Part shown: positions 19,109-29,596 of the stretch, one piece after another
How positions within the stretch are numbered: the stretch's first letter is position 1
Layout: each line of letters opens with the position of its first letter
Origin: Thioalkalivibrio paradoxus ARh 1
GTDB lineage: Bacteria > Pseudomonadota > Gammaproteobacteria > Ectothiorhodospirales > Ectothiorhodospiraceae
NCBI RefSeq assembly: GCF_000227685.2
Contig: NZ_CP007029.1
Coordinates: 1,524,501-1,588,500, forward strand
Direction: 5' to 3'
Length of the DNA: 64,000 nt
Notes under the pieces: generated by a model
Told to the model about the DNA's origin: nothing
What the model saw: the letters and a program-made list of their open reading frames with translations, nothing else
Database searches by the model: none
Position numbers and translations under genes: made by a program

Positions 19109-20785
19109 TCAGAACGGGCGGGGCGACGGGTATTCCTGGAACACGCCGCGCGGATTGGTCGGCGGAGGCGCCAGCACCGGGTCGTCTTCGGGCCAGGCCA
19201 CGGCGGGAAGCCTTCCGTCGTGAATGCGCTGGCGCTGGATCTCGATGCGTGGGAGATCGAGCAGCGCGGCGGTCTGGCGATACCCCTGTTCGGCGCGATC
19301 AAGGGCCGACAGTGCGCCGTTTGCATCGTCGTTGGCCGCCCGCGCCAGCGCGAGTGCCTCGAATACCGGTGGCATCGGGCCGGCCGCCAGCAGCCCCTCG
19401 GCCAGGTCCAGCCCGCGAGCGGGATCGCGAACCGCCGGATCGTCGGCGGCACTGAACAGGCGGCTCAGCGCATAGCGCGGCATTGGGTGTTGCGGCAGCG
19501 CCTGGATGACGGGCTCCAGTTGGGCCTGGATTTCCGCCTCGGAGCGACCGGCGCGCCGGTCGGCGACCAGCGCCAGCACCCGGGCGAGACTGTTGTCGCG
19601 AAAGCGTTCCCCGGCCTGTGTCAGCAGCCGTGCGGCGGTGGGCCAGTCGCCTTGCCGGAACGCCAGCAGGCCGAGGTGATGCGCGGCGCCGGGGTGCTCG
19701 GGCTGTAACTCCAGTACCCGCCGGTAGTGCTCGAGGGCGCCATCGCGATCGCCGTCGGCATCGAGCAGCACCCCGAGCAGAAAGGCCGCGAGCGTATCCC
19801 GCGGATGCTCGCGCAGCACCGCTTCCAGAATTTCTCGGGCAGGCGCTTGCTCGCCGCTCAGATACAGCGCCCGGGCGTGGCTGATACGGGCGTGATGGTT
19901 GTCCGGATCCTCGTCCAGCCCGCGGGCGAAATGGTCGGCGGCCTCGGCGTAGCGGTGGTCGCGCGCGGCCTGCAGGCCGAGCAGGAAATGGCGGCGCGCG
20001 CCGGTGTCGAGATCGTCCAGCTCGCGCACGATGCGGTCGTCGGCCAGCGGCTGGCGTTCGCCGCGCAGCGCCAGCGCTTCGCGCGCGGCGTCGACGGCAC
20101 CGGTTCGCCGCAGTGCCTGCGCCAGCGGGGTGTAGACGGCGTCCGCGCCGGGATCCTTGTCCAGCGCCCGTTGGAACCACTCGACGGCGCGGTCGAATTC
20201 CCGGCGCTGCAGTGCCCGTTGCCCGAACCGGAACGCCGCAGCGGCCTCCAGGCCCGGTTCGGCCAGGGCCTGCTGCAGGTGGTCGCGCGCGTCGTCGGGG
20301 CGGTTGAGTTCGAGCAGCACTTCGCCGAGGCGCAGCGGCAGCGCAGGGTAGTCGGGATCGATCGCCGCGGCGGCCTCGTAGGCCGCAAGCGCGTCGTCCA
20401 GCCGGCCGGAGCCGTGGGCGAGCCAAGCGTCGAGATAGGCCCAGCGGAAATGTCCGGGGTCGAGGCTGCGTGCGTTGCGGTAGGCGGCGATCGCTCCAGC
20501 CGGAACCTCGTGCACATGGTAGAGCGCGCCCAGCCGGCCGTAGAGTTCCGCAAGGTCTTCCGGCGACGTCTGTGGATCCGCCAGCGCATCGCGCAGCGCG
20601 TCCCGCATTGCTTCGATCTCGGCCCGCGCCCGTGGCTCGGCGCCGGAGAGGTCCGGCGCGGGAACCGGCACCAGTGCCCCGTCCGCCTGCGGCGGTTCCC
20701 GCAGGAGATCGCCGTGCACGGGCGTGGTGGCTGCGACGAGGATCAGGGCCGCGCCCGCGAGCGCCGCGGGCCAGGATCGAGTCAT
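19109..20785 (-). CDS. Exported tetratricopeptide-repeat protein, third gene of the pentaheme/CRTAC1 operon
   Basis: The protein is 558 residues from the ATG at 20785, which overlaps the stop of the CRTAC1 gene (ATGA). A signal peptide (RSWPAALAGAALILVAATTP) leads to about ten TPR motifs across residues 70-500 (for example GRLDDALAAYEAAAAIDPDY and DRDGALEHYRRVLELQPEHP). TPR arrays bind protein partners. Since its neighbours are a membrane multihaem cytochrome and a beta-propeller protein, it probably organises a periplasmic complex with them. No catalytic site is visible. Confidence 0.82.
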   Translation of the reverse strand: MTRSWPAALAGAALILVAATTPVHGDLLREPPQADGALVPVPAPDLSGAEPRARAEIEAMRDALRDALADPQTSPEDLAELYGRLGALYHVHEVPAGAIAAYRNARSLDPGHFRWAYLDAWLAHGSGRLDDALAAYEAAAAIDPDYPALPLRLGEVLLELNRPDDARDHLQQALAEPGLEAAAAFRFGQRALQRREFDRAVEWFQRALDKDPGADAVYTPLAQALRRTGAVDAAREALALRGERQPLADDRIVRELDDLDTGARRHFLLGLQAARDHRYAEAADHFARGLDEDPDNHHARISHARALYLSGEQAPAREILEAVLREHPRDTLAAFLLGVLLDADGDRDGALEHYRRVLELQPEHPGAAHHLGLLAFRQGDWPTAARLLTQAGERFRDNSLARVLALVADRRAGRSEAEIQAQLEPVIQALPQHPMPRYALSRLFSAADDPAVRDPARGLDLAEGLLAAGPMPPVFEALALARAANDDANGALSALDRAEQGYRQTAALLDLPRIEIQRQRIHDGRLPAVAWPEDDPVLAPPPTNPRGVFQEYPSPRPF

Positions 20786-22638
20786 TGCGTGTCTTCTCCG
20801 TCGGGTTCCACCACCGTGATCTGCCGGTTGACGGCACTGACCTCGACCTCCTGCACGACGCCGCTGGGCCAACGGATCTCGAGGCGGTCGACCGTGTCGT
20901 GATCGCCGAGGCCGAAGGTGACCGGCAGTTCGACCTGTGCCAGGTAGCTGCGCGTGGGGGACACGAGCCGGCGCTGGGTTTCGCCGCCGGCGGTCAGCCG
21001 GACCTCGGCACCGATCGCGTCGCGGTTCGACTGGGTGCCGACCAGGCGTACCCGAAGCCAGTGGTGCCCCTGGTCCTGATCGTTGCGCAGCAGTACCGCA
21101 GGGCGACCGTTCTGCGTCACGATCAGATCCAGATCGCCGTCGCCGTCGAAGTCGGCATAGGCCATCGCCCGCCCGGCCATCGGGGTGGCCAGGTCGCCCG
21201 GATCGGACACCTCGACGAAGCGGGTCGCGCAGGCCTCGCCGCAGTTCCAGAACAGCTGGCCCGGCTGTTCGTAGTGCTGGCTTGGGTGCACGGTGTTGAT
21301 TTCGTGCTCCAGGTGGCCGTTCGCCTGCAGGAAATCGAGGCGGCCGTTCAGATCGACGTCGATGAACAGCACGCCGAAGGTCAGTGCCAGCCGGGTGGGG
21401 CCGGCAATGCCGTCGATCATCGCCTCGTCGGCGAACGGGGGCTCCCCGTCGGCCGTTACGTACAGCGAGCTCGGCTCGTTCGCGAAGTTGCCGATCGCGA
21501 TGCCGAGGTCGTCGTCGTTGCGGAACCAGGCGGCGTCGATTCCCATGGCCCCGGTCGCGCTCCCGTCACGGTCGAAGGCCACGCCCTCGAACGCACCGAC
21601 CTCCTCGAACGTGCCGTCACCGCGGTTGCGGAACAGGAAGTTGCGCACGGTGTCGTTCGCAACCACCAGGTCCATCCAGCCGTCGCCGTCGTAGTCGATC
21701 GCGACGACGCCGAGCGCCTTGCCGGCCGCGCGGCCGGTGCCCGGTTCGACGACCTGGATCCCGGCCTCGGCCGAGACGTCGGTGAAAGTGCCGTCGCCGT
21801 TGTTGCGGTACAAATAGCCGTGCACGCCATTGAAGTGATTCGGAGCGCCGTAGGCCCGGCCGAGCCCGGTGAGCCGGAAGTCGATCTCGAGGTCGATCTC
21901 CGGCGACCACTCGACATAGTTGCCGACGTAGAGGTCGAGCAGCCCGTTGTTGTTGGAATCGAAGAACGCGGCGGCGGTGGACCAGTCGCGTTCGAGTCCG
22001 CCGACGCCGGCCTTGTCGGTGACCTCGCGGAAGCGCCCCTGCTCATTGCGGAACAGCCGGTTGGTGCCCACCGCGGTGATGAACACGTCGACCCAGCCGT
22101 CGTTGTCGTAGTCGCCAACCGCGACGCCCATCCCGTACAGGTCGACGTCGAGCCCGGCCCGCTCGGTGACGTCGGTGAAGCGGCCGGTTCCGTCGTTCTC
22201 GTACAGCGTCAGCCGCGGCCGTTCCGGCCCTTCGTGCCCGGGCCAATAGCTGGAATTCACGAGCAGGATGTCCGGGTGGCCGCTGTTGTTGTAGTCGAGC
22301 ACGGCGACGCCCGCGCCGATGGTTTCGGGCAGCAGCCGTTCGCCGTAGGCACCGTTCACGTGGGTAAAGTCGATGCCGGCTTCGCGGGTGATGTCGGTGA
22401 AGGTCAGCGCCGGCGGCCCGCCTGTAACCGGCGGCGCCAGCGGCTCGGGTGCGGCGATCGGGATTTCGTCGACGGTTTCCGGCTCCTCGCGCGCGATCCA
22501 CCACCAGGCGAGCAGAACCGCGAGCACGAGCACGGTCAGCACACTGGCCGCGATCACCGAATACCGGAACATTCGGGCGATGCGGGCGTCGCCGCCGACC
22601 TCTTCCAGAGAGCTGCGTTCGGACGGGCGGTCGTTCAT
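20782..22638 (-). CDS. CRTAC1 family protein: membrane-anchored FG-GAP/VCBS beta-propeller with ASPIC/UnbV C-terminus
   Basis: The protein has 618 residues. A single N-terminal helix (about 26-49) anchors it, so the rest is periplasmic. The propeller carries six or more calcium-type loops: DYNNSGHPD, DYDNDGWVD, DSNNNGLLD, DYDGDGWMD, DVDLNGRLD, DFDGDGDLD. The ASPIC/UnbV domain closes the protein (GAEVRLTAGG to RLEIRWPSG). A lone cysteine pair, NCGEACATRF, lies near residue 460. Such proteins are usually extracytoplasmic scaffolds or binding proteins. It starts 2 bp after the cytochrome gene ends and overlaps the TPR gene. Confidence 0.87.
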   Translation of the reverse strand: MNDRPSERSSLEEVGGDARIARMFRYSVIAASVLTVLVLAVLLAWWWIAREEPETVDEIPIAAPEPLAPPVTGGPPALTFTDITREAGIDFTHVNGAYGERLLPETIGAGVAVLDYNNSGHPDILLVNSSYWPGHEGPERPRLTLYENDGTGRFTDVTERAGLDVDLYGMGVAVGDYDNDGWVDVFITAVGTNRLFRNEQGRFREVTDKAGVGGLERDWSTAAAFFDSNNNGLLDLYVGNYVEWSPEIDLEIDFRLTGLGRAYGAPNHFNGVHGYLYRNNGDGTFTDVSAEAGIQVVEPGTGRAAGKALGVVAIDYDGDGWMDLVVANDTVRNFLFRNRGDGTFEEVGAFEGVAFDRDGSATGAMGIDAAWFRNDDDLGIAIGNFANEPSSLYVTADGEPPFADEAMIDGIAGPTRLALTFGVLFIDVDLNGRLDFLQANGHLEHEINTVHPSQHYEQPGQLFWNCGEACATRFVEVSDPGDLATPMAGRAMAYADFDGDGDLDLIVTQNGRPAVLLRNDQDQGHHWLRVRLVGTQSNRDAIGAEVRLTAGGETQRRLVSPTRSYLAQVELPVTFGLGDHDTVDRLEIRWPSGVVQEVEVSAVNRQITVVEPDGEDTQ

Positions 22639-22640
22639 GG

Positions 22641-25550
22641 TCAGCGTGTCTCCTGACGCCTCGGGTCGTGCTCCCGGCGGCGACTCCCGGTGTCATCGGC
22701 CATCCCCGGCCGCGGGTGCGCATCCTGCCCCTGAACCTCGCGCCATGCAAGCGCCGTGGGATCGCGGACAGTGCGCTGCAGGTCGTACAACGTGAGCGCC
22801 TCGGCGGCCTGGTTGGCTGCCGGATTGGCGGCGCGGTGGCGCGCCACCGCAGTCGCGATCGCCAGGTCGTCGGGCCGGTAGCGTTCGTGTGCTGCGCGAT
22901 GCTGTGCCGCGGCCTCGGGGTCGCCCAGTTGCTCGAGAACCTGCGCCATCGTGTGATGCACCGCGGCGGCTTCCGGATCGATCGCCAGCGCCGCCTGCAG
23001 CGCCTCGCGGGCCTGCTGCAGCAGCACCTGGCGGCGTTCGCTGCGCGCCTCGCCGCGTGCAGCGCGGGCCTGCTCGAAACGCGTCCGCCCGAGCAGTTGC
23101 GCCACGCGCAGATCGCGCGAGAAGTCGAAGCCGCGGTCGCGTGCTTCCTGGAAGCGGGTCGCGTACAGCGCCTCCAGGCGATCGGCGGCGGCGTCGAGAC
23201 GTCCGTACTCGCGGTCGATCAGCGCCGCGTACCAGGCCAGGGTCCAGGGCGGCGCTTCGGCTTCGCGGGCTCGCGCGAGTGCGCGCGCCGCGTCGTCGAG
23301 GCGGCCCTCGCGGAAATAGACGCGGGCGAGGTTCAGCGGGCCATCGGCGCGACCCAGCCGTTCCACCTGCTGGAACGCGGTCTCGGCCTGACGCAGTTGG
23401 CCTCGGGCAGCGTCGCGGTCCGCGGTACGCAGCAGCCCGATGCCGTAGTCGTTCCAGCGTTCCCAGGGCGCGACCGGGTGTTCCTGGGGCGGCGCCGTGG
23501 TGTTGCCGGCCAGCGGCAGCGTGAGCCGGTCCGCCGCGAGCGTGGTGATCGGCAGATCGTTGCGGGTAAACGACTCGCCCTGCACGTGACGCATCAGTCG
23601 GGTATCGAACTTGCGATAGTGCAACGCCGCGTCGATCGTCAGCGGTCCTTGCGCATCGTCGGGCACCGTGAACCGGTACTGCACCACGGCCGCCGCGCCC
23701 GGCGGCACCTGATGATCGTACAGGGCCACGAAGATGTCCTGAACGTTGCGACGGTCGATCCGGTTGCCGTCACGGTCGAGCACGTAGGCGTTCACGAAGT
23801 GCGCCCAGGGGTCGACGTCGCCGTCGGGGCCGAGCGCGCCGCTGTGCCCGATCACCCCGTCGCCGTCGCGCAGCAGCACCTCCAGCCAGAGGTCGTTGGA
23901 GTCCGACGTTCCCTGCGTCAGCGGATGCCCGATGCGCAGCGTGCGCAGCACCACCTCGAGCAGATAGTCGTTCCCGGGTTCGAGCTTCGGCAGCTCGGGC
24001 CGCAGTGGGGCGTGCAGCTCGCCGTCGATACGCCCGTCCTCCTTGATGCCGAACAGGTCGATGCGGGCGACCCGGTCGCGCAGGAAATCCTGCCGGGCTT
24101 CGATCTCGCTTGCGTCGCGGCCCAGCAGCTGCGGGATCGCGGTGTTGGCGGCCGCGAAGCGATGGTCGTGCACGCCAACTCCCTGGCCGGGGAACGCGCG
24201 CGCGGCCGGATCGCGCGAGGCCGAATACGGCATGTGGCAGCCGGTGCATCCGGTTTCGGCCCGCTCGGGATAATAAAAGCTGTCGACGCGGTGGCCCGAC
24301 ACGCCGCTGGCGAGAAAGGTGCCGTAGTGGTCCTGGCCACGCAGCCAGCGGTAGTGGTTCAGTTCCTGCGGTAGCCCGACCTTGTGGCAGGTGCTGCAGA
24401 ACTCGGGCTCCTGGTGCAGCGGGCGTAACAACGTGCGCTTGTGGTAGGCCGGTTTCGCCCGGATCAGCTGCCGCCCCAGCGCGGCGAGCCAGGCGTTGGT
24501 GCTGTCCTCGAACGGGTAGCGCGGCGGATCGACCAGCGTGAAGTCGGCGTTGCCGCGCGGGCTGTTGACCTCGGTGACCGCATGGCAGACCAGGCAGGTG
24601 ATGCCGGCCTCTGCTGCGGGATCGCGGTCCGGGTCGTAGTCCGGCCGGTCGAACGCGCCGGAGAACAACGGCAACGGATCGTGACAGCCGGCGCAGAACC
24701 GGGCGGCCTGCACGTTGCCGTCGCGTTCGAGCACGACCGCGCGCGTCTCCTCCACACTGAAGCGGTAGACCGGGTTATTGAACGAACTGAAGCGGTGCAT
24801 GCTGGCGGCATGCTGGTCGGCGATGTCGGCATGACACTCGGCACAGAATGCATCGCGCATCAGGCGCTCGGGGGGCAGCGTTGGTGTGTCGTTTGCGCTG
24901 GACTGGGTGGCGGCCAGCCGGGTCAGCGCCGGTTCAAACGTGGCGACGGCCGTCGGCTCCCCCTGTTCCGGGTGATACAGGTGCAGCCCAGCGGTGGCCA
25001 AGGCGAGCATCGCGGCGACCCCGGCCCAGCGCAGGCCCGCGCGCCAGCGCAGCCGCGGGCCGGCCAGCCGGTGCAGCAGAAACAGCCACACGATCGCCAG
25101 CGGCGCCGCGACGTGCAGCCAGTAGAAGGCGGCTCGTGCAGCGGGGTGATGGACCGCAAGAAAATCGAAGCGCACCAGCATCAGCCCCGAGCCGATCAGC
25201 AGCAGGCCGGTGACCGCGAGTGCCACTCCGGCCCCCACCGCATAGCGGTTGCGGCGGCCCCAGGCGCGGCGCAGGTGCCCGTAGACAAAGGCCAGGAACA
25301 CCGGGATCAGCAGCAAGCCGAGGCCCAGGTGCAGCACGACCATGAGTAGGTAGAGGTAGCCTTGCAGACTGCGCCCGGTGACGAACTCGGCGAACGTGAT
25401 CCCGGCCAGGTACAGCGAGTTGACCGCGAGCAGCACAAACAGCAGGAACAGCAGCGCGAGCAGCGGCCGTAGCGCACCGCCGATCACCTGGATCCGGCGG
25501 GGGGAGGGGGGTCTGGGAGCGCCGCGCCGAGGGTGCCTAGTGCCGGCCAT
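22641..25550 (-). CDS. Membrane-anchored pentahaem cytochrome c with C-terminal TPR domain
   Basis: The protein has 969 residues. Five N-terminal helices (about 29-50, 65-90, 103-125, 142-162, 175-192) contain histidines at 74, 146 and 160 that could ligate a b-type haem. With five helices and a cytoplasmic N-terminus, the rest is periplasmic, as haem c attachment requires. Five CxxCH sites follow: 236-240, 286-290, 319-323, 385-389 and 435-439. After a beta-rich region (470-690) the protein ends in TPR motifs (about 740-950). This looks like a quinol-oxidising anchor fused to a c-type electron wire. It heads an operon with CRTAC1 and TPR genes. Substrate unknown. Confidence 0.85.
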   Translation of the reverse strand: MAGTRHPRRGAPRPPSPRRIQVIGGALRPLLALLFLLFVLLAVNSLYLAGITFAEFVTGRSLQGYLYLLMVVLHLGLGLLLIPVFLAFVYGHLRRAWGRRNRYAVGAGVALAVTGLLLIGSGLMLVRFDFLAVHHPAARAAFYWLHVAAPLAIVWLFLLHRLAGPRLRWRAGLRWAGVAAMLALATAGLHLYHPEQGEPTAVATFEPALTRLAATQSSANDTPTLPPERLMRDAFCAECHADIADQHAASMHRFSSFNNPVYRFSVEETRAVVLERDGNVQAARFCAGCHDPLPLFSGAFDRPDYDPDRDPAAEAGITCLVCHAVTEVNSPRGNADFTLVDPPRYPFEDSTNAWLAALGRQLIRAKPAYHKRTLLRPLHQEPEFCSTCHKVGLPQELNHYRWLRGQDHYGTFLASGVSGHRVDSFYYPERAETGCTGCHMPYSASRDPAARAFPGQGVGVHDHRFAAANTAIPQLLGRDASEIEARQDFLRDRVARIDLFGIKEDGRIDGELHAPLRPELPKLEPGNDYLLEVVLRTLRIGHPLTQGTSDSNDLWLEVLLRDGDGVIGHSGALGPDGDVDPWAHFVNAYVLDRDGNRIDRRNVQDIFVALYDHQVPPGAAAVVQYRFTVPDDAQGPLTIDAALHYRKFDTRLMRHVQGESFTRNDLPITTLAADRLTLPLAGNTTAPPQEHPVAPWERWNDYGIGLLRTADRDAARGQLRQAETAFQQVERLGRADGPLNLARVYFREGRLDDAARALARAREAEAPPWTLAWYAALIDREYGRLDAAADRLEALYATRFQEARDRGFDFSRDLRVAQLLGRTRFEQARAARGEARSERRQVLLQQAREALQAALAIDPEAAAVHHTMAQVLEQLGDPEAAAQHRAAHERYRPDDLAIATAVARHRAANPAANQAAEALTLYDLQRTVRDPTALAWREVQGQDAHPRPGMADDTGSRRREHDPRRQETR

Positions 25551-26835: not shown

Positions 26836-26945
26836 ATGAAAAGGGGAGTCACGGAAAGCAGGGACAGACACGGGGAAAGGAGTTGATCCGTTTCATGCTC
26901 CGTGATTTCCGTGTCCTTCGGTGGCTGTCGTTTCACGTCATTGCG
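26836..26945. repeat. Dispersed repeat, family 3
   Basis: On the minus strand it reads agccaccgaaggacacggaa, then atcacgg, and about 60 bases later gctttccgtgactccccttt. The same series occurs at 53.4 kb in opposite genomic orientation. Its ends are imperfect inverted repeats (ccgtg / cacgg). Its left part abuts the family 1 copy region. Confidence 0.75.
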
Positions 26946-27552
26946 GGCCGGGATCGGCGATGTGCAGGCTCAGGGTGTGCACGCGGTAGCGGCTCAGCCG
27001 GAGATCATCGGGCCAGGTCGCCGAAGGCAGGCCTGCCTTCTCCCAGAGCGCGTCGACGAAGTCGCCGGGTTCGGGCAGCTGTTCCCAGACCGCTGGCAGG
27101 AAGGTGGCCCGGCGCAGGCCGCTGCGAACGACCAGGCCGTCGACGCCCGCCCGCAGCGTCTCGAGCAGGGCCGTGCGCGAGGTCGGGGCTAGCGGCTCCT
27201 GCTGCCCCAGTGCCGCGATCGAGAGCTCCAGACCGGCGATTTCGTTCGTGGTCAGCGGCGGGAAACGAGGGTCGTGACGCGCCGCCGCGAACGCGTTGTA
27301 GGCGACGTCCTCGATCAGGGGGCGCGTGGCCTCGAGCGTTCCGATGCAGCCGCGCAGCCGGCCTGCGCGCCTCAGCGTTACGAACGTCGCACCGGGGCGC
27401 CGAAGCGCCGGTGGTTCGCGGCTGGGGTCGACGCATGGCAGCGCCTGGACCGCGGCGGCCTGCCGTACCCCGAACACGGCGATGTCGAGCAGCCGCGCCT
27501 CGTGTTCCGGCTCCAGGAACCGGGTGTGCTCACTGGATCGTCCATGCGCCAT
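26938..27552 (-). CDS. amrA: AmmeMemoRadiSam system protein A (AMMECR1 domain)
   Basis: The 204-residue protein is an AMMECR1-fold protein with the invariant LRGCIGTL motif near residue 68 and DPRFPPLT further on. The start has GGAGG upstream and overlaps the end of the Memo-type gene by 23 bp, so the two are coupled. Together with the Memo protein and the radical SAM enzyme on the other strand it forms the AmmeMemoRadiSam set, which is widely conserved but has no settled biochemical function. Confidence 0.9.
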   Translation of the reverse strand: MAHGRSSEHTRFLEPEHEARLLDIAVFGVRQAAAVQALPCVDPSREPPALRRPGATFVTLRRAGRLRGCIGTLEATRPLIEDVAYNAFAAARHDPRFPPLTTNEIAGLELSIAALGQQEPLAPTSRTALLETLRAGVDGLVVRSGLRRATFLPAVWEQLPEPGDFVDALWEKAGLPSATWPDDLRLSRYRVHTLSLHIADPGPQ

Positions 27553-28333
27553 AGCCCACGACCTCCGAACGCGGTCCCGCGGTGTCCCCGGAATTGCGCA
27601 GGTCCAGCGTGTGCACGGTCAGGCGGTGCGCGCGTGCCGCGCGCAACAGGCCGGCCAGCGGCCGGCACCCGCAGGCGCGTTCCGGGGTCAGACTTTCGTC
27701 CTGCATCGCCTCGATGGCGCGGCAGGTCTCGGCATCGAGTGTCTGCGCAGTGCGGTAGTCGTGGTAATGAGACAGGTCGGAGCTGACGACGATCAGCGTC
27801 TCCGGTCCGCCCCAGAGCCGTTCGAGTACCGCCGCAACCTGCTCCGGACCCGCATCGCCCACCACCAGCGGCACCAGATTGAAGTTACCGAGCAGCAGCT
27901 GCAGGAACGGCAGGTGGACCTCGAGGCTGTGCTCCGGCCCGTGTGCAAGGTCGAGCGTGACGACCCCGGGCAGCTCCCGGATCGACGCAAGCGCGGGGCG
28001 GTCGACGGCGATCGTGCCAAGCGGTGTTCGGTAGGCGCCGGCGCCGGTGGCCGCGATTCCGCGGAAGGGCACGCGGTGCGACGGCCCGAGCAGCACCACA
28101 CGCTGGATGCGATCGCTGGCATTTCCGAGTGCCGCATACGCCGATGCGGCGACCGGACCCGAATAGCGGTACCCGGCATGAGGTGCAATCAGCGCCTTGG
28201 GCAGCGAGCGACCGGCGGCGGGGCCGGTGGCATCGGCCATCAGCGCCTGTACCGCGCGGCGCAACGCCGCCGGATCGTCCGGGTAGAACAGCCCGGCGAC
28301 CGCCGGATCGCGAACCGTCTCCGTTGCCTGCAT
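27530..28333 (-). CDS. amrB: AmmeMemoRadiSam system protein B (Memo-like)
   Basis: The protein is 267 residues from the ATG at 28333 with GGAGG upstream. It is a Memo family protein related to extradiol dioxygenases and carries the metal-site histidine segments APHAGYRYSG, GPSHRVPF, EHSLEVHLPFLQ and SSDLSHYHDY. It is the first gene of the minus-strand pair. The 153 bp between it and amrS should hold divergent promoters. Human Memo1 binds metal, but what the bacterial protein does is not known. Confidence 0.9.
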   Translation of the reverse strand: MQATETVRDPAVAGLFYPDDPAALRRAVQALMADATGPAAGRSLPKALIAPHAGYRYSGPVAASAYAALGNASDRIQRVVLLGPSHRVPFRGIAATGAGAYRTPLGTIAVDRPALASIRELPGVVTLDLAHGPEHSLEVHLPFLQLLLGNFNLVPLVVGDAGPEQVAAVLERLWGGPETLIVVSSDLSHYHDYRTAQTLDAETCRAIEAMQDESLTPERACGCRPLAGLLRAARAHRLTVHTLDLRNSGDTAGPRSEVVGYGAWTIQ

Positions 28334-28486
28334 TCCGGTTCCTCCATGTTCCGTTCCTGCATCCCCTTCATGAATATGGACCATCGGGAACGGACTCGGT
28401 GCCATCGGTTCGGCGGCCCAACGCCGGGAACTGCAGGCGCACCACAGGGCTCCAATGAATCAGGGAGTTTCCGACCAGAACAGGCC

Positions 28487-29596
28487 ATGAACACAACCCT
28501 CGCCCGCGACGCGTACACGGTCGCCACCCGTTACTGGCAGACGCTCGCGGACGGTCGCGTGCAATGCGATCTGTGCCCGCGCCTGTGCAAGATGAAGCTT
28601 GGCCAGCGCGGAGCCTGTTTCGTGCGCGCCAACCTCGACGGCGAGGTGGTGCTGACGACCTATGGGCGCTCTAGCGGCTATTGCATCGATCCGATCGAGA
28701 AGAAGCCGCTGAACCACTTCCTGCCCGGCACGCCGGTGTTGTCGTTCGGCACCGCGGGCTGCAACCTGGCCTGCAAGTTCTGCCAGAACTGGGATATCAG
28801 CAAGTCGCGCGAACTCGATACGCTGATGGATCGCGCCGATCCGGAAACCATCGCGCGCGCGGCTGTCTCCAGCGGCTGCCGCGCGGTGGCGTTTACCTAC
28901 AACGATCCGGTGATCTTCCACGAATATGCCCAGGACGTCGCGACGGCGTGCCGAGAGCAGGGGATTCGGACCGTCGCGGTGACCGCGAACTACATCAGCG
29001 AAGCGGCGCGAGCCGAGTTCTACGCTGGCATGGACGCGGCCAACGTCGATCTGAAGGCCTTCAGCGAACGCTTCTACCACCGGCTGACGGGTGCGCATCT
29101 GCAGCCGGTGCTCGACAACCTCGAGTGGCTGGTGCACCAGACCCGGGTCTGGGTGGAACTGACCACGCTCTTGATTCCCGGCGAAAACGACAGCGACGAC
29201 GAGATTCGCCGGATGTGCGATTGGGTGATCGAAAGGCTCGGGCCGCAGGTGCCCATGCATTTCACCGCGTTCCATCCGGACTTCCGGATGACCGATCATC
29301 CGCCGACCCCGGTGGAAACCCTGCGCCGCGCGCGGCGCATCGCGCGCAGTGCCGGCGTGCATCATGCGTATACCGGCAATGCCTGGGATCCCGACGGCCA
29401 GTCGACCTGGTGTCCTGCCTGCAAGCGCAAGCTGATCGGCCGTTCCGGCTATGAGATCACCGCCTGGAACCTCGATTCCCAGGGACGCTGCGATGTGTGT
29501 GCGACGCCGCTCGCGGGTGTGTTCGAGGCGGCACCCGGCCAGTGGGGCGCGCGCCGCGTTCCGGTTCGTCTCGCGGAGTTCGTCCCGAACCCATAG
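28487..29596 (+). CDS. amrS: AmmeMemoRadiSam system radical SAM enzyme
   Basis: The protein has 369 residues. It has the radical SAM motif CNLACKFCQNW, an N-terminal cysteine group CDLCPRLCKM, and a C-terminal CPACKRK / CDVCATP pair that may bind zinc or another Fe-S cluster. It is homologous to pyruvate formate-lyase activating enzymes. A lone upstream frame from 27326 is non-coding. It is divergent from amrBA, completing the three-gene system within 2.7 kb. No candidate glycyl-radical substrate is encoded in the window. Confidence 0.92.
   Translation: MNTTLARDAYTVATRYWQTLADGRVQCDLCPRLCKMKLGQRGACFVRANLDGEVVLTTYGRSSGYCIDPIEKKPLNHFLPGTPVLSFGTAGCNLACKFCQNWDISKSRELDTLMDRADPETIARAAVSSGCRAVAFTYNDPVIFHEYAQDVATACREQGIRTVAVTANYISEAARAEFYAGMDAANVDLKAFSERFYHRLTGAHLQPVLDNLEWLVHQTRVWVELTTLLIPGENDSDDEIRRMCDWVIERLGPQVPMHFTAFHPDFRMTDHPPTPVETLRRARRIARSAGVHHAYTGNAWDPDGQSTWCPACKRKLIGRSGYEITAWNLDSQGRCDVCATPLAGVFEAAPGQWGARRVPVRLAEFVPNP

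Follow-up and report, generated by a model that had tools for sequence, protein, structure and literature searches.

A membrane-bound pentahaem cytochrome and a CRTAC1-family propeller protein, whose genes adjoin each other in Thioalkalivibrio paradoxus ARh 1, constitute a conserved two-gene unit that is found in Gammaproteobacteria, Planctomycetota and Acidobacteriota, usually with the two genes side by side. The pair is proposed to form a quinone-linked di-haem-b/penta-haem-c membrane electron-transfer module with the CRTAC1 protein as its periplasmic partner, an assignment in which our confidence is evenly balanced. In the window, the whole 64,000-nucleotide stretch that was analysed, three genes lie on the minus strand: gene 1 (25550-22641, start ATG, 969 aa) encodes the cytochrome, gene 2 (22638-20782, 618 aa) the propeller protein and gene 3 (20785-19109, 558 aa) an accessory TPR protein. 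A gap of 2 bp separates genes 1 and 2, and genes 2 and 3 overlap by 4 bp, coordinates that confirm the codirectional arrangement reported in a preliminary description of this DNA. The start of gene 3 was taken as the ATG at 20785, which overlaps the CRTAC1 stop codon (ATGA); a mechanical listing of reading frames began at TTG 20872. Other genomes retain the reading frame of gene 1 at 42-92% identity, and many of them the gene order too, so the set is more than a chance arrangement.

The gene 1 product comprises an N-terminal membrane domain (residues 27-192; 24975..25472, minus strand), a pentahaem domain (residues 200-470; 24141..24953, minus strand), a β-sandwich (residues about 490-690; 23481..24083, minus strand) and a TPR tail (residues about 695-905; 22836..23468, minus strand). 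The AlphaFold model contains N-terminal helices at residues 27-58, 65-96, 102-125, 136-162 and 169-192, of which helix 2 carries H74 and H92 and helix 4 carries H146 and H160, the putative ligands of two b haems. The CxxCH sites are at residues 236, 286, 319, 385 and 435; further conserved histidines are found at positions 252, 370, 408 and 463 of the pentahaem domain, and H542 is invariant in the β-sandwich. The tail was recognized as TPR by a fold search of the model, single Pfam TPR models falling just under their cut-offs by sequence. The earlier depiction of a protein with five histidine-bearing helices, five CxxCH sites and a TPR tail is thereby borne out by the modeled helices, the four conserved membrane histidines, the motifs and the fold of the tail. 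Model confidence is low around the haems (pLDDT mostly below 50), so ligand assignments rest on conservation rather than structure.

Conservation was assessed in an alignment of 44 homologues longer than 600 aa and scoring above 290 bits, shorter or lower-scoring pieces having been dropped; the set comprises 36 members of the main family, six of a second Planctomycetota subfamily and two distant proteins. The 15 haem-motif residues, H252, H370, H463, H542, H74, H92, H146 and H160 are invariant in 44/44, a conservation that holds across all three subfamilies, with identities as low as about 27%. The four-histidine pattern of the membrane part is that expected of two b haems. Position 408 is H in 36/36 main-family members and E or D in 8/8 others. 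In 11 Acidobacteriota proteins, the haem residues and the same four further histidines are all kept, position 408 is H in four, E or D in six and A in one, and the first haem motif is CxxxxCH in three (L121-L123). H252, H370, H463 and H542 are therefore invariant in all 55 proteins examined, which are genes from fetched, aligned loci rather than all matches. One or more membrane histidines are missing in four Acidobacteriota proteins (L119, L120, L121 and L129), which retain the c-haem residues, and the entire membrane domain is absent in L122-L124; b haems are thus not universal among gene 1 relatives. A possible selenocysteine in L009 was dismissed, as the two in-frame TGA codons fall beyond the gene end.

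The gene 2 product matches the Pfam families FG-GAP (130.2 bits) and UnbV_ASPIC (72.6 bits), both above cut-offs, and has an N-terminal hydrophobic stretch at residues 20-51 and five Dx[DN]x[DN]G motifs, in agreement with its initial reading as a membrane-anchored, calcium-type propeller. At E<=0.01 it matches a single protein in the PDB, cartilage acidic protein 1 (9etn, E 3.1e-19). For gene 3, which had been described as an exported TPR protein, the TPR repeats score above the Pfam cut-off; the export part depends on a hydrophobic N terminus, residues 5-23, which on visual inspection looks like a signal peptide.

The host genome, a single contig of 3.76 Mb, contains one match to gene 2, at the operon, and, besides gene 1 itself, one distant soluble relative of the cytochrome. 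Among named loci, the nearest are those of Thioalkalivibrio MAGs at 74-77%, a comparison from which the window's own record was possibly excluded. A promoter scan found no minus-strand site, and the single terminator-like site in the scan is located within gene 3. The operon is adjoined by an AmmeMemoRadiSam trio (protein A, protein B/Memo and a radical SAM protein; 26938-29596), relatives of which also adjoin it in L098 (G010) and L029. Membership of the trio in the operon was rejected, these two loci, both of the genus, being the only ones with such relatives among the 28 compared. A gene for a 216-aa lipoprotein-like protein (26398-25748), with a lipobox seen by eye and no Pfam match, was likewise rejected as a member: it is present in 11/30 genus genomes, including operon-free ones, while the operon is present in 6/30, and its BLAST matches among 44 loci are confined to those of the genus.

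Pairing of the two genes was followed in four genome samples. The E-value cut-offs dividing orthologues from paralogues were set after the first matches had been inspected, and genes in the loci were called with a home-made composition score, so that some neighbours may be misassigned and gene starts are approximate. Among 30 genus genomes, not all of them complete, gene 1 is present in six and gene 2 (at least 73% identity) in the same six; gene 2 is in two pieces in G008, and in G013 a full gene 2 is on a different contig from gene 1. Within this sample, the operon is dispensable. Among 369 genomes of the class (cut-offs E<=1e-40 for gene 1 and E<=1e-100 for gene 2), gene 1 matches occur in 15, comprising 13 of the main family and two distant, and gene 2 orthologues occur in 13, the identical set to the main-family genomes. 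The two genes share a contig in 9/13, including G051, scored by a C-terminal gene 1 piece on its CRTAC1 contig, and lie apart in G108, G162, G344 and G409. In the two distant genomes, G082 and G284, a CRTAC1-HEAT fusion gene is directly upstream of the cytochrome gene.

In 294 Planctomycetota genomes (gene 2 cut-off E<=1e-105), main-family gene 1 is present in 46, counting G669, where the match is split in two, and gene 2 is present in 46/46 of these. The CRTAC1 gene is within 1.5 kb of the cytochrome gene in 40/46, on the same strand in 40/40; the genomes without adjacency are G442, G505, G568, G595, G608 and G669. The two genes occur together even where they are unlinked, as in G162 of the class sample and G442 of the Planctomycetota. 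In a further 30 Planctomycetota genomes, gene 1 is represented only by more distant relatives, with gene 2 in 17/30 and none at E<=1e-105 in 13/30, and 3/66 genomes with gene 2 have no gene 1 match. Co-occurrence in relatives had been suggested, for all three families, as a check on the first description; for the pair it is seen far beyond the genus, in 13/13 main-family genomes of the class and 46/46 of the Planctomycetota.

Among 149 Acidobacteriota genomes, gene 1 relatives at E<=1e-60 were found in 31, nine of them main-like. At 11 loci, gene 2 is adjacent in seven, comes after an opposite-strand gene in L125 and was not called in the stretch in three, leaving four (L121, L124, L125 and L126) without a CRTAC1 gene directly beside the cytochrome gene. 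In L119, L120 and L129, a protein with both TPR and CRTAC1 matches comes after the cytochrome. Among named loci, the CRTAC1 gene follows the cytochrome gene in 11/16, and 6/7 genomes behind such loci have gene 2 at 51-58%; G413, in which the cytochrome is near a contig end, has CRTAC1 paralogues only, at up to 46%. In G416 and G417, gene 2 adjoins a second cytochrome copy, the copy in L041/L042 having no gene 2 beside it. Some bacteria have many CRTAC1-family proteins. The bacterial CRTAC1 relatives that these searches returned besides gene 2 are mostly at 33-48% identity. A mirror-tree correlation (r 0.886, 32 pairs) was given no evidential weight, as species divergence was uncontrolled. In L093 and L094, distant membrane pentahaem cytochromes without TPR come directly after a fused CRTAC1-HEAT gene, and in L091 an Omp85/TamA gene adjoins a lone cytochrome.

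The preliminary description had treated all three genes as the unit. The set is real and conserved, but the conserved unit is the cytochrome and CRTAC1 pair, and gene 3 is clade-specific. In a gene 1 tree of 55 rows (a quick method with SH-aLRT support; long branches), 14 rows form a gammaproteobacterial clade with support of 100, and in 12 of these rows gene 3 comes after gene 2; of the two exceptions, L036 stops inside gene 2 and L089 has gene 2 on another contig. Gene 3 was found in third place in none of nine other rows of the class, of which L034 and L096 are cut off where their contigs stop. Gene 3 is thus most simply an add-on of one gammaproteobacterial clade, recruited once. In L088, gene 3 comes after a second CRTAC1 gene, of 38%. 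The three phyla are intermixed in the tree (seven label changes versus a least possible two), which suggests transfers, with the proviso that some MAG contigs may sit in the wrong bin, as may be the case for the Kuenenia bin L044, which is outside the tree. Relics are present in two genomes of the genus. In G017 (L102 9011-9408), what remains after the lipoprotein gene is a run of 26 gene 1 codons (85%) and then about 65 gene 2 codons, and the 12-kb stretch gave no gene 3 match; in G027 (L130 1344-1556), mere scraps of gene 2 are left in a 4-kb stretch. As far as seen, therefore, the operon decayed as a whole unit.

The quinone-linked electron-transfer reading of gene 1 builds on its plan, in which a single membrane chain carries five c haems together with two putative b haems, a plan like that of CbcL. 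The protein would hold its b haems across the membrane, with the pair H74/H146 toward the periplasm and H92/H160 toward the cytoplasm, a placement judged visually from the order of the helices and from where the loops are positively charged, and would move electrons between the quinone pool and the five c haems of a periplasmic, c552-type domain. Gene 2 would be a dedicated partner that docks on the pentahaem/β/TPR part. L122 and L123, which have no membrane domain, keep CRTAC1, which suggests that the contact most likely lies on the pentahaem/TPR part. The TPR tail, and gene 3 where present, may bind proteins, either keeping the complex together or bringing in a soluble redox partner. Haem b content, reaction with quinone, complex formation and the roles of propeller and TPR are all predictions here. 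To our knowledge, bacterial CRTAC1-family proteins lack a known biochemical role, and their strict association with a single type of multihaem cytochrome provides a first testable one. More tentatively, and with somewhat less than even confidence, CRTAC1 propellers may be dedicated subunits of multihaem cytochromes, defining an undescribed respiratory or redox class of three phyla in which a seven-haem b/c unit would be inoperative without its propeller. Gene 1 would then be a seven-haem membrane electron-transfer protein of about one quarter of the sampled Planctomycetota (76/294, distant subfamilies included) and of sulfur bacteria, in which it is carried by Thiocystis and Thioalkalivibrio.

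The protein may instead be a membrane pentahaem enzyme, in which one c haem would be catalytic for a small N or S compound, the b haems would feed or drain it and CRTAC1 would shape the substrate entrance. Other members of the c554/c552 neighbourhood, where the haem domain belongs, are enzymes, and for five c haems just four further histidines are invariant in all 55 proteins; with H408 replaced by E or D (or A) in some of the homologues, the sixth ligand of one haem may vary. No member of the window's subfamily lacks H408, however, so that all five haems can be bis-His there, although its pairing with a particular haem is only a candidate one. NrfA nitrite reductase has a CxxCK catalytic haem, a motif that is absent from gene 1. 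With no CxxCK and five candidate further histidines, the main family favours pure electron transfer, E or D at position 408 elsewhere leaving room for an enzyme, and the enzyme reading is considered unlikely.

Two other roles appear less probable. Were the pair to let electrons into or out of an extracellular electron-transfer chain at the inner membrane, with TPR proteins holding the conduit to the outer membrane, its occurrence in Planctomycetota, Acidobacteriota and sulfur bacteria and the domain plan shared with CbcL would be in keeping; yet in the loci read, no additional gene with at least three CxxCH motifs was called beside the pair, and other neighbours do not recur across lineages. 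This role is improbable. TPR and propeller domains are protein-binding folds, and they would be put to use in a non-respiratory unit that assembles exported proteins or controls their quality in a redox-dependent way, with the cytochrome as electron supplier and CRTAC1 and TPR as chaperones. In PMC12758564, CRTAC1-family genes also flank hydrazine synthase subunit homologues, which would suit such a function. Seven predicted haems would be costly for that purpose, however, and no thioredoxin-like or haem-lyase family was found among the neighbours scanned, which were those of the window operon only; an assembly role is very unlikely. The electron-transfer module remains the preferred reading.

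A description of the cytochrome, CRTAC1 (and TPR) set was not found in the open-access literature searched, in line with the original statement that no such system was known. Several identities were rejected for gene 1: NrfA, as all five motifs are CxxCH; NrfH, the model TIGR03153 scoring 18.2 bits against a cut-off of 134.2; and NapC, whose model is not among the matches at E<=0.01. MccSep (9wt8) is only a weak sequence match (E 0.07-0.08). The gene 2 product shares FG-GAP and UnbV_ASPIC with other CRTAC1/UnbV_ASPIC proteins and differs in its N-terminal membrane anchor and its pairing with a multihaem cytochrome. We know of no TPR or CRTAC1 partners of CbcL, the inner-membrane quinone oxidoreductase of Geobacter sulfurreducens. 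According to PMC9129911, a membrane domain with two b haems is fused in CbcL to a periplasmic multihaem c domain, with six membrane helices and nine c haems. The plan of membrane b haems and periplasmic c haems on one chain is that predicted for gene 1, which has five helices and five c haems and is thus not of the CbcL type as described there; the comparison is one of domain plan, not of sequence. Hydrazine-synthase-like clusters resemble the operon in having a CRTAC1-family gene beside haem-protein genes; they carry hydrazine synthase subunit homologues (PMC12758564), whereas none was found in the window operon.

The closest structural likeness is to the penta-haem cytochrome c552 of Thermochromatium tepidum (5ze8). 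A fold search with the haem/β part of gene 1 alone returned 5ze8 as the top match; with the whole model, the matches listed were all TPR or other helical-repeat proteins. Identity is 16-17%, and TM-scores are 0.23/0.28 on a low-confidence model. Five CxxCH motifs and a likeness in sequence and fold that includes the β domain mark the haem part of gene 1 as distant kin of c552, a 435-aa chain that, unlike gene 1, has no membrane b domain or TPR tail. The soluble pentahaem paralogue of the same genome (497 aa; 1420-2913 of L002 948-4237), which adjoins a small cytochrome c gene and a sigma-54 activator, aligns over 411 columns of the haem and β domains with an hhalign probability of 99.96%, its profile having been built from five such soluble proteins. 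It too is without a membrane domain or TPR, and the only CRTAC1 match of the genome is at the operon.
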